Assembly (NCBI RefSeq): GCF_002305875.1
Contig: NZ_CP022098.1
Coordinates: 6,386,001 to 6,450,000, forward strand
Length of the DNA stretch: 64,000 nt
Direction: 5' to 3'
DNA from: Cystobacter fuscus
GTDB lineage: Bacteria > Myxococcota > Myxococcia > Myxococcales > Myxococcaceae
Shown: piece by piece, positions 10,585 to 14,405 of the stretch
Layout of the letters: each line of letters opens with the position of its first letter
Position numbering within the stretch: the stretch's first letter is position 1
Made by a program: the position numbers and the translations under genes
Notes under the pieces: generated by a model
Databases searched by the model: none
What the model was told of the DNA's origin: nothing
Seen by the model: only the letters and a program-made list of their open reading frames with translations

Positions 10585-10764
10585 CCTGAGTGGTTCATCC
10601 CCGGAGAAGGAAATCCCCGGGGATCAGCAGGCGGCCGGGGGTCTTGGGTGATGGAGGACATGGGCAGGGCGGCGGAGGAAGAGCGGGCAGGCGAGGCCTC
10701 CGAGCGGTTCGCTCGGGACTCGCACTCCGGATTCCAGGGCCAGGCGCAGGAAGCGGAGCAGAGC

Positions 10765-11730
10765 ATGCGGCAGCGCGACCGACACGGAGAGAGGCCCCTG
10801 ATCCTGGTCGTGGAGGATGATGCGGGCACCCGTGACAGCCTGACGGAGTTGCTCTCGGCCCGCTACCACGTCCTGGGCGCCAGTGATGGCCAGTCCGGAG
10901 TGGAGCTCGCCCGGGAGCGGCACCCGGATCTCATCCTCCTGGATCGCTTCCTGGAGAGCGGCGAGGACGGTCTGGCCGTGCTCGAGTCGCTCCAGCACGA
11001 CCGCGCCACCGAGTCCGTGCCCGTCATCTTCCTCACCGGGGACTCGGACGAGGCCACGCTCGAGCGCTGCCTGGAGCTGGGCGCGGTGGACTTCGTGCAC
11101 AAGCCGGCGAGCGCGCGCGAGCTGATGGCCCGCATCAACCGGGCGCTGCGCCAGAGCGAGCAGCAGCAGCGGCTGCAGGCCATGGCCCAGACGGACGCGC
11201 TCACGGGCCTGGCCAACTTCCGCGCGCTGTCCATGCGGCTGGACGAGGAGTTCAAGCGCTCGAGCCGCTACGACTACCCGCTGTCCGTGGTGGTCATCGA
11301 CTTGGATCACCTCAAGGCCATCAACGACGGCATGGGCCATGAGGTGGGCAACCGCGCCATCCTGGCGCTCGCCAACCTCCTGCGCACCAACCTGCGCGAG
11401 GTGGACTTCGCGGCGCGCTTCGGCGGCGACGAGTTCGTGGCGCTCCTGCCCCACCAGACGGCCGCCGAGGCGGCGGTGCTCGCCGAGCGCATCCGCACGG
11501 GCCTGCGCACGGTGAAGGTGACGCGCAGCGATGGGCGGCCCGCCCCCTTCGGGTTGAGCGTGAGCGTGGGCATCGCGGATCACTCCCCCGCCCAGCCGCG
11601 CGCGTGCACCGACGAGTTGCTGAGGGCCGCGGACGCGGCGCTCTACGAAGCCAAGCGCGAGGGCCGGGATCGCGTGGTGGTGTACGGCGCCTCGGATCTG
11701 GCGTCCCCCAAGGCAGCACAACGGCACTGA
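10765..11730 (+). CDS. Response-regulator diguanylate cyclase (REC-GGDEF)
   Basis: 321 aa from ATG 10765, which has GGAG 6 nt upstream. A longer start at GTG 10648 is possible but adds a disordered acidic tail. REC domain: LILVVEDDAG, phospho-acceptor D60 in LILLD, LTGDSD and the HKPAS lysine. GGDEF domain: DALTGLANFRAL, DLDHLKAINDGMGHEVGN, and GGDEF at about 220-224, preceded five residues earlier by the RxxD product-inhibition site (REVD). It should therefore make c-di-GMP when phosphorylated and feel feedback. A sigma-54 promoter candidate lies upstream, and a flavoprotein-REC gene follows 30 nt downstream, probably in one transcript. Confidence 0.92.
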   Translation: MRQRDRHGERPLILVVEDDAGTRDSLTELLSARYHVLGASDGQSGVELARERHPDLILLDRFLESGEDGLAVLESLQHDRATESVPVIFLTGDSDEATLERCLELGAVDFVHKPASARELMARINRALRQSEQQQRLQAMAQTDALTGLANFRALSMRLDEEFKRSSRYDYPLSVVVIDLDHLKAINDGMGHEVGNRAILALANLLRTNLREVDFAARFGGDEFVALLPHQTAAEAAVLAERIRTGLRTVKVTRSDGRPAPFGLSVSVGIADHSPAQPRACTDELLRAADAALYEAKREGRDRVVVYGASDLASPKAAQRH

Positions 11731-11760: not shown

Positions 11761-13509
11761 ATGGACGGTGGAGCAAGGGCTCGGATGAGCGGCAGCAGGC
11801 TGGCGAGCGGATCACGGGTGGCCATCGTCGGCGGGGGGATCGCCGGAGCGGGACTCGCCGCTTCGCTGATCTTCAACGGACGGGCCCGTGGGTGCGCGCT
11901 CGATGTGCGCGTGTACGAGAGCACGGATCCGGACTCCGTGGCTCCCCCCGCCATCCTCACGCCCGAGTGCCGCTCGCGCCTGGCCGCGCTCGGCGCCCGC
12001 GTGCCCCAGGAGTGGCGCGTCCATGAGTTGCGCGGCGTGGAGCTGCTCTCCCATGGCCAGCGCGAGGTGATGCCCGCGTCGGCTGGTGGCCTGTGGGTGG
12101 TGGATGCGTGGCCGCAGGGCCAGGGCGGACTGGCGCTGGTGCGCGAGGCGCTCGCGGGCACGGCCACCTCCCAGGGCGCGCGCTTCGTGCCCCGGCGCGT
12201 GGAGCGCGTGGAGCACCTGCCCTCGGCGCCGGATGCTCCCGCGGTGGTGCGCAAGAATGGTCCCCTCGTGGTGCGCGCCCAGGGCAGTGGCGAGCGCTTC
12301 CACGCGGTGGCCCTCGCCACGGGCGCGGGCGCGTCGCTCGGCGACTCCTTCTTCCCGGGCTTCCAGCCCGCTCCGTCCGTGGCCGCCGTGCAGGCACGCC
12401 TGCGCCTGCCCTCGCCCCGCATGGGCCCTCCGCCGCTCGCCCGGCTGTGGATGTCTCCCCTGCCCTCCGTGGATGGGCTCGTGCTCCTGCCGGGCGCCCA
12501 CTCGGTGTACGCGCTCGCCTATGGCCCCGCGGTGACGCCGGCGGACCTGTGCCAGGCCTTGATGATGGCCGCGCGCGACGGGCTCGTGGAGGAGGGCTTC
12601 GAGCTGCTCGCCCTGGAGACCACGCGCCTGCCCTACGGGCCGGGCCGCTCGCTGGTGGCACCCGGACAGCTCGTGGTGGGCGCGGCCGCGTTCGGCCACC
12701 CGCTCCAGGTGGGCCTGTCGGACACCCTCGCCTCGTGCAGCCGCGCCGCCGTGGCCCTGCTGGACGCGGGCCTGGAGGCCCCCGCCCTGGAGCGCCGGTA
12801 CGTGCGCGACGGCCTGGGGGATCTGCTGGATGACGCGGCCGCGGGCGCACGCGCCGTGACGTGGCTGCGCCGCGCGGGACGCCGCGCGCCCCAGGCCTTC
12901 CTCACCGCTCGTCACCGCGTCGCCGCGGCGGGCACCGTGGGCTCGGGTGTGCTGGGCCTCCCCGCCCCCTCTCCCCAGGTGCTGCTGTCCGTGGCGCGCT
13001 GGGCCGGCATCCGCGAGACGATGTCCTCCTGGGTCCGCACCGCCGTGGAGCCCCTGCCCACGACGATTCCCACGATGGAGCCGGACCTCTACTACATCGT
13101 GGACGACGATCCGGATCAACGCGAGGCCATGACGCAGCTGCTCGAGTCCACGGGCGCCCACGTGGTGGCCTTCGCCGACGAGCTGGCCCTGTTCTGCGCG
13201 GTGGCCCGGCGGCCTCCCACCGCCATCCTCCTGGACGTGGTGCTGCACTGGGTGGACGGACTGCGGCTGTGCGAGGGGCTCAAGCAACACCCGCTCACGC
13301 GTGACACGCGCGTGGTGGTCATGAGCGGAATGAACCGGCCCCACGTGCGCCAGCGCGCGCTCGACGCCGGCGCCGAGGCCTTCCTGCCCAAGCCCGTGGA
13401 TCCCGAGCGCCTGTTGCGCCAGCTCATGGGCCTGGTGCCTCCCACCTCCTCCGCTCCCACCGAGGCGCCGCTCGACTCGGCCGGGGAGACGGGGCGCTAC
13501 GCCTCCTGA
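11761..13509 (+). CDS. FAD-dependent oxidoreductase fused to a C-terminal receiver domain
   Basis: 582 aa. The N-terminus has the Rossmann dinucleotide motif VAIVGGGIAGAGLAASL (residues 21-37) and, later, a GQLVVGAAAFGHPLQVGLSD segment equivalent to the GD-motif that closes the FAD site in the geranylgeranyl-reductase/monooxygenase superfamily. Residues from about 443 form a complete REC domain: YYIVDDDPDQ, phospho-acceptor D492 in AILLDVV, VVMSGMN and K544 in FLPKP. The linker runs through a helical stretch near 400-440. Flavoenzyme and receiver in one chain is an unusual pairing. It follows the REC-GGDEF gene by 30 nt and its 3' end overlaps miaA, which is convergent. The substrate is unknown. 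Confidence 0.85.
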   Translation: MDGGARARMSGSRLASGSRVAIVGGGIAGAGLAASLIFNGRARGCALDVRVYESTDPDSVAPPAILTPECRSRLAALGARVPQEWRVHELRGVELLSHGQREVMPASAGGLWVVDAWPQGQGGLALVREALAGTATSQGARFVPRRVERVEHLPSAPDAPAVVRKNGPLVVRAQGSGERFHAVALATGAGASLGDSFFPGFQPAPSVAAVQARLRLPSPRMGPPPLARLWMSPLPSVDGLVLLPGAHSVYALAYGPAVTPADLCQALMMAARDGLVEEGFELLALETTRLPYGPGRSLVAPGQLVVGAAAFGHPLQVGLSDTLASCSRAAVALLDAGLEAPALERRYVRDGLGDLLDDAAAGARAVTWLRRAGRRAPQAFLTARHRVAAAGTVGSGVLGLPAPSPQVLLSVARWAGIRETMSSWVRTAVEPLPTTIPTMEPDLYYIVDDDPDQREAMTQLLESTGAHVVAFADELALFCAVARRPPTAILLDVVLHWVDGLRLCEGLKQHPLTRDTRVVVMSGMNRPHVRQRALDAGAEAFLPKPVDPERLLRQLMGLVPPTSSAPTEAPLDSAGETGRYAS

Positions 13510-14405
13510 GGCAGCTCCGCGGCCCTCAGCGCGTCATAGGGCGGCTCCACGAAGAGCGCCCCGGGCTCCTTGCGGAACCACGTGAGCTGCCGCTTGGCGT
13601 AGCGGCGCGTCTCCTGGGCCACCAGCTCTCGCGCCCGCTCGAGCGACAGCTGGCCCTCCACCACCGCCTTCGCCTGCGCGTAGCCCACGCTGCGCATGGG
13701 CGCCGCCTCGGCATACCCCCGGGCGAGGAGCCCTCGCACCTCCTCCACCAGGCCCCGCTCGAACAGCGCCTCCGTACGCCGATCGATGGCCTCGTACAGC
13801 GCCTCGCGCGGCGGTGAGAGCACGTACATCCGGAAGGGATAGCGGCTCGCGGCGAAGGCATGCTCCCGGCGGAACTCGGAGGCGGGCCGGCCCGTCTGGC
13901 GGTGGATCTCCAACGCCCGGATGACGCGCACCAGATCTCGCGGAGGCAGCTTCGCGGCCGTCTCCGGATCCACCTGGGCGAGCTGCCGGTGCACGGCCTC
14001 ACGGCCCTCGGCGGCGGCGAGCGCCTCCAGCTCGGCGCGCAACGTCGGATCCGCGCCGGGCGCCTCCACGAGCCCATGCAGGAGGATGCGCAGGTACATG
14101 CCCGTGCCGCCCACGACGAACACCCGCCGCCCCCGGGAAACAATATCCGCGATGGCCGCGTCCGCCCGGCGCTGGTACTCGGCGGCGGAGAAGGGCTCGA
14201 GCGGCTCCACCACGGAGACGAGGTGATGGGGCACCGCGGCGCGCTCCTCGGCCGAGGGCTTGGCGGTGCCGATGTCGAACTCGCGGTACACCTGCTGCGA
14301 GTCCGCGCCAACGATCTCCCCCCCGTGCCGCAGGGCGAGCTCCACGGCGAGCGCGGTCTTCCCCGAGGCGGTGGGTCCGGCGATGACGGTGAGGAAGGGC
14401 TTCAT
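13497..14405 (-). CDS. miaA: tRNA dimethylallyltransferase MiaA
   Basis: 302 aa, full length for the family. The P-loop is GPTASGKT (10-17), followed by the substrate-binding segment VGADSQQVYREFDIGTAKPS and HHLVSVVEPLEPFSAAEY, then GGTGMYLRILLHG and the C-terminal GYAQAKAVVEGQ...TRRYAKRQLTWFRKE. The enzyme transfers the dimethylallyl group to A37 of tRNAs reading UNN codons. It is the last gene of a minus-strand run (psd-hisS-miaA), 48 nt after hisS. The 3' ends of miaA and the convergent flavoprotein gene overlap by 13 nt. Confidence 0.96.
   Translation of the reverse strand: MKPFLTVIAGPTASGKTALAVELALRHGGEIVGADSQQVYREFDIGTAKPSAEERAAVPHHLVSVVEPLEPFSAAEYQRRADAAIADIVSRGRRVFVVGGTGMYLRILLHGLVEAPGADPTLRAELEALAAAEGREAVHRQLAQVDPETAAKLPPRDLVRVIRALEIHRQTGRPASEFRREHAFAASRYPFRMYVLSPPREALYEAIDRRTEALFERGLVEEVRGLLARGYAEAAPMRSVGYAQAKAVVEGQLSLERARELVAQETRRYAKRQLTWFRKEPGALFVEPPYDALRAAELPQEA

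Follow-up and report, generated by a model that had tools for sequence, protein, structure and literature searches.

What does a response-regulator receiver do when it shares one polypeptide with a domain that resembles a flavoenzyme? The question is raised by a gene of Cystobacter fuscus that lies in a 64,000-nucleotide stretch of contig NZ_CP022098.1 (hereafter the window). An earlier reading of the DNA (the original prediction) described the product as a full FAD-dependent oxidoreductase followed by an intact receiver (REC) domain, 30 nt behind a REC-GGDEF cyclase, in which phosphorylation might gate a redox reaction. Here we examine the fusion, its cofactor site, its receiver and its neighbours. 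The features discussed are listed in Table 1.

Table 1. Features of the locus, in window coordinates, with the evidence for each.
Feature	Position	Strand	Evidence or comment
REC-GGDEF diguanylate cyclase, DmxB (MXAN3735) orthologue	10648..11730	+	Pfam Response_reg 5.1e-23, GGDEF 6.2e-40
FAD-fold-REC protein	11761..13509	+	582 aa; orthologue of MXAN_3734; alternative start 11785
N-terminal GR2/FAD-monooxygenase-like domain, residues 14-436	11800..13068	+	Foldseek, profile search; below Pfam cut-offs
GxGxxG dinucleotide loop, G24-G29	11830..11847	+	61-sequence alignment
E53, end of beta-2	11917..11919	+	position variable in family
R73, family-invariant Arg	11977..11979	+	alignment
Degenerate GD motif VGAAAFGHP, residues 306-314; Asp position is A308	12676..12702	+	alignment
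Receiver domain, residues 441-558	13081..13434	+	Pfam, entropy, dN/dS
D492, predicted phosphoacceptor	13234..13236	+	invariant
S522, receiver S/T	13324..13326	+	S in 58, T in 1 (alignment)
K544, conserved receiver Lys	13390..13392	+	invariant
C-terminal pentapeptide GRYAS after freely varying linker	13492..13506	+	orthologue C-termini
miaA, convergent neighbour	13497..14405	-	overlaps end of FAD-fold-REC gene by 13 nt (13497-13509)

The fusion is old and conserved

Translation of the gene gave one open frame with no internal stops. In every orthologue whose contig spans both domains, including those of the diverged families f6-f9, the FAD-fold-REC fusion was likewise full length. Because these orthologues come from dozens of independent genomes in five families of one order, the fusion is not a frameshift or sequencing artefact. 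The candidate explanation that an error in sequencing or assembly had run two genes together, against which the original prediction had warned, was thereby excluded; nothing was found in its favour, and we give it practically no credence. The domain search that the original prediction had proposed thus returned proteins fused in the same way across these five families, and its claim that an oxidoreductase-like part and a receiver share one chain was borne out. Searching the Cystobacter genome with the N-terminal domain (N-domain) alone gave one match, so that genome has no second copy of the domain; the further matches obtained with the full-length protein were to its receiver part.

With the N-domain as the query, 77 of 145 searched genomes from the order had relatives; a profile search of the phylum set found them in 79 of 195, all within the one order. 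Outside the order, coverage consisted of some 50 additional phylum genomes, none of which matched the profile, and a scan for close-relative contigs; the family alignment had no relatives among viral contigs. The FAD-fold-REC fusion is old and conserved. Separately, a contig of 250 kb recorded as Comamonas sp. KCTC 72670 (L065) carries the fusion at 73% identity, along with DmxB and miaA; this record reads as myxobacterial and is probably mislabelled or contaminated.

The gene corresponds to MXAN_3734 of the dmxB operon

In Myxococcus xanthus, the diguanylate cyclase DmxB makes the surge of c-di-GMP that is needed for fruiting bodies. Comparison with the M. xanthus locus (L049) identified the window gene as the orthologue of MXAN_3734 and the upstream gene as dmxB, with identities to the M. 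xanthus protein of 71% for the N-domain and 88% for the receiver. In L049 and its near relative L047, the upstream gene contains D60 and R210ESD when the start is set so that GGDEF falls at 219, and D60, R210ESD and G219GDEF are the published landmarks of DmxB/MXAN3735 (PMC4877007). The downstream frame of L049 is 577 amino acids long from the Met aligned to M9 of the window protein, and 577 amino acids is the published length of MXAN_3734, which forms a two-gene operon with dmxB in M. xanthus according to RNA-seq (PMC8844925). The exact start of the window gene is uncertain, since the M. xanthus annotation begins at the codon that aligns with M9 and a start at this position fits the annotated length of MXAN_3734. 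The predicted spacing of 30 nt between the cyclase stop and the gene holds if the first ATG (11761) is used, and becomes 54 nt from the M9 start (11785). Outside its receiver, MXAN_3734 was described as having no known domains (PMC4877007, PMC8844925).

The N-domain resembles GR2-type flavin enzymes

No Pfam family reached its gathering score on the N-domain; there was a weak match to DAO, at 22.1 bits against a cut-off of 27.9, and ten diverged relatives were likewise below Pfam cut-offs. A family profile built from diverged members gave weak matches to flavin enzymes in the PDB, the best being the halogenase CmlS (E 2.8e-4). When the N-domain was modelled by itself, AlphaFold2 gave a structure of moderate confidence (pLDDT 57.9, pTM 0.60), and in a Foldseek search of this model against the PDB all of the best 50 matches were flavin enzymes (top E 1.1e-12), with TM-scores of roughly 0.4-0.5 to enzymes of the p-hydroxybenzoate hydroxylase (PHBH), kynurenine 3-monooxygenase (KMO), halogenase and geranylgeranyl reductase (GGR) kind. 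The full-chain model (pLDDT 46) was uninformative on the N-domain, as its best 50 fold matches were all receiver-containing proteins. Pyr_redox_2 gave no Pfam match in the window protein and weak, sub-threshold matches in relatives; one thioredoxin reductase chain appeared in the family profile search (E 0.004), whereas the best structural matches were to GR2 enzymes. The family profile and the Foldseek matches of the N-domain model suggest with moderate confidence that the N-domain has the fold of GR2-type FAD enzymes such as PHBH, KMO and the halogenases.

Two FAD-contacting positions have eroded

We examined the residues that hold FAD in enzymes of this fold. In 61 aligned sequences, gaps aside, G24 and G26 of the GxGxxG loop are invariant and G29 is altered once, to Ala. 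The acid at the end of beta-2 is normally the ribose-binding residue. The window protein keeps an acid there (E53), but across the family the position is occupied by E, D, S, A, Q, H or G, and is E or D in 17 of the 59 sequences with a residue at this site. At position 308, where the GD motif normally has its Asp, the window protein has Ala; of the 60 sequences that have a residue at this site, 4 have D or E and the others A, P, T or S. These diverged exceptions are three members of f6 and one of f7. As a control, we aligned the FAD_binding_3 proteins encoded in the same genome: all 22 have E or D at the end of beta-2. Over the GD motif 7 of the 22 did not align, and the remaining 15 all have D or E at the GD position. 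Position 73 is Arg in all 59 sequences with a residue there; by our own reading of the motif, related flavin enzymes presumably tend to have a hydrophobic residue at this point.

As judged from the alignments, these comparisons show that two FAD contacts, the beta-2 acid and the GD Asp, are not under the usual selection in this family, which does not by itself prove that FAD has been lost. Binding of a dinucleotide by the N-domain may persist, given the near-invariance of its GxGxxG loop and the acidic GD residue retained in three members of f6 and one of f7. The description of a full FAD-dependent oxidoreductase was thus not confirmed and is too strong: only the GR2 fold and the GxGxxG loop find support, whereas DAO falls short of its cut-off and two of the three FAD fingerprints are eroded across the family relative to the same-genome control.

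The proposal that the protein is a working FAD enzyme whose redox reaction is gated by phosphorylation of the receiver could draw on the GR2 fold, with flavin enzymes as all 50 of its best structural matches, on the nearly invariant loop and the purifying selection on the N-domain, and on the existence of REC-thioredoxin reductase fusions (PMC5847659). Against it, nearly all members have Ala, Pro, Thr or Ser in place of the GD Asp and about two-thirds have lost the beta-2 acid, both of which are retained by the FAD_binding_3 proteins of that genome; all Pfam matches to the domain score below cut-off; and the adjoining genes are the cyclase and miaA, with no obvious biosynthetic or redox-partner gene alongside. 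We therefore consider a working enzyme unlikely. Redox chemistry of the N-domain was not supported, as the FAD-holding residues lack the usual selection and neither a redox-active residue nor a substrate could be discerned.

Indications that constraint is strongest in the receiver

Pfam Response_reg matched residues 446-554 at 1.6e-21, with 77 bits against a cut-off of 30.2. D449/D450, D492 and K544 are conserved in every orthologue that covers them, so the intact receiver of the original prediction was confirmed, with D492 and K544 correctly numbered. No kinase gene was identified adjoining the FAD-fold-REC gene. Receiver identity exceeded N-domain identity in every orthologue compared, and among near orthologues the mean column entropy was 0.33 for the receiver versus 0.66 for the N-domain. 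Between close species, dN/dS was 0-0.09 for the receiver, 0.09-0.33 for the N-domain, about 1 or somewhat less for the linker and 0.20-0.29 for DmxB's own receiver, values that are best read as indications because few pairs were compared and the close pairs differ by a small number of changes. There are thus indications that the receiver is the most constrained part of the protein, beyond even DmxB's own receiver.

This constraint, and the published finding that a knockout of the gene had no developmental phenotype (PMC4877007), would fit a protein in which the receiver alone acts, as a phosphate sink or as a competitor for a kinase that other receivers also use, with the N-domain as a mere scaffold. 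The N-domain is nevertheless retained in five families with an invariant loop and R73, and its dN/dS of less than one-third or so reflects purifying selection, which argues that it is not dead sequence. On balance, we regard action by the receiver alone as distinctly improbable.

The link to the cyclase is conserved in four families

A REC-GGDEF gene lies directly upstream of the fusion in families f1, f6, f7 and f9. On the other side, the convergent gene, a putative miaA by its resemblance to the MiaA sequence family, is conserved across Myxococcaceae and in f7. The 13-nt overlap also occurs in a few relatives; in others the two genes are separated by up to 2.9 kb. Members of f8 (L071, L072 and L073/L074) have the fusion with no adjoining cyclase, next to genes that include recA, rtcB and SMC genes. 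A close DmxB was not found in the genomes of these f8 carriers, so the link of the FAD-fold-REC protein to DmxB is not obligatory. Conversely, families f2, f3 and f4 have DmxB-like genes with no FAD-fold-REC partner. At six f2/f3 loci (L133, L134, L135, L136, L140 and L142), the DmxB-like cyclase is convergent with a different receiver-bearing ORF of about 480-790 amino acids.

That the gene is coupled to a cyclase gene in four families lends some weight to another possibility, that the N-domain is a non-catalytic sensor of redox or metabolic state, through flavin or another nucleotide, and controls the receiver or the adjoining cyclase. A FAD fold with an intact phosphate loop and relaxed cofactor-site residues would fit such a sensor, whereas the variability of the beta-2 position speaks against a fixed adenosine ligand, and we find this explanation rather improbable.

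A conserved C-terminal pentapeptide

Nearly all Myxococcaceae orthologues end in [GDE]R[YF]A(A)[SY]. That this motif is merely a by-product of the 13-nt miaA overlap is an insufficient explanation, as it persists where the two genes are 0.8-2.9 kb apart. Given this persistence, the pentapeptide may be a binding or degradation signal.

A model for the FAD-fold-REC protein

The explanation we favour, and to which we give about an even chance, is that the protein is a response regulator whose degenerate FAD-fold output acts by binding, probably on DmxB or its pathway. It builds on what the data support directly: the two domains share one chain, the receiver is intact and strongly constrained, the fold can be assigned (from a moderate-confidence model), the FAD residues have eroded, and gene order with DmxB is conserved. 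A histidine kinase would phosphorylate D492 in trans, and this would change how the receiver and the FAD-fold domain relate to each other. The latter would then bind a protein or nucleotide partner with no turnover of substrate. The most likely effect would be to tune the c-di-GMP output of the co-expressed DmxB, or to act in the same developmental programme.

The receiver of DmxB itself has a dispensable phosphosite, as the D60N protein is functional (PMC4877007). Since D60 is dispensable and the FAD-fold-REC receiver is more constrained than that of DmxB, the former is the better candidate for phospho-input, which suggests that the operon would receive its phospho-input mainly through it and not through DmxB's receiver. 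That the protein tunes DmxB is unproven, because deletion of MXAN_3734 caused no developmental phenotype under the conditions tested (PMC4877007). A more specific version, which we put forward tentatively as possible but not likely, is that the pseudo-oxidoreductase has become a signalling module: receiver phosphorylation, or a ligand bound in the former flavin pocket, would lead it to bind DmxB and set its activity, thereby providing a phospho-input that is not available through DmxB's own receiver.

These results give MXAN_3734 a biochemical identity that can be tested, as a degraded FAD fold joined to a receiver on which purifying selection seems to act more strongly than on that of DmxB, and add a case of an enzyme fold apparently retained for signalling.

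Comparison with known systems

The gene and its operon were already known, and like MXAN_3734 the window gene is the second gene of a dmxB operon and encodes a C-terminal receiver. The difference is that the remainder of MXAN_3734, published as having no known domains, is here assigned the FAD fold of GR2 enzymes, with a cofactor site that has degenerated. In the open-licence PMC literature we found no description of a FAD-REC fusion in myxobacteria or of a flavin-enzyme-like half of MXAN_3734, and a GR2-fold REC protein in the dmxB operon therefore appears to be undescribed in the literature searched. The general idea of a receiver and a flavoprotein in one chain is not new, because 'Mycobacterium-like' REC-thioredoxin reductase fusions have been published (PMC5847659). 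These also join a receiver to a dinucleotide-binding flavoprotein fold; compared by the text of that paper alone, they differ in that the partner is thioredoxin reductase and not a GR2 monooxygenase-like domain (PMC5847659). With the GR2 FAD enzymes (PHBH, kynurenine 3-monooxygenase, the halogenases CmlS and PyrH, and geranylgeranyl reductase), the N-domain shares the predicted fold and the GxGxxG loop, but it lacks a conserved GD Asp and beta-2 acid, falls below Pfam cut-offs and is joined to a receiver. Finally, the upstream neighbour is a REC-GGDEF protein of the PleD/WspR/DmxB type, and the receiver of the fusion is itself PleD-like in sequence and structure searches, whereas the FAD-fold-REC protein has no GGDEF domain.
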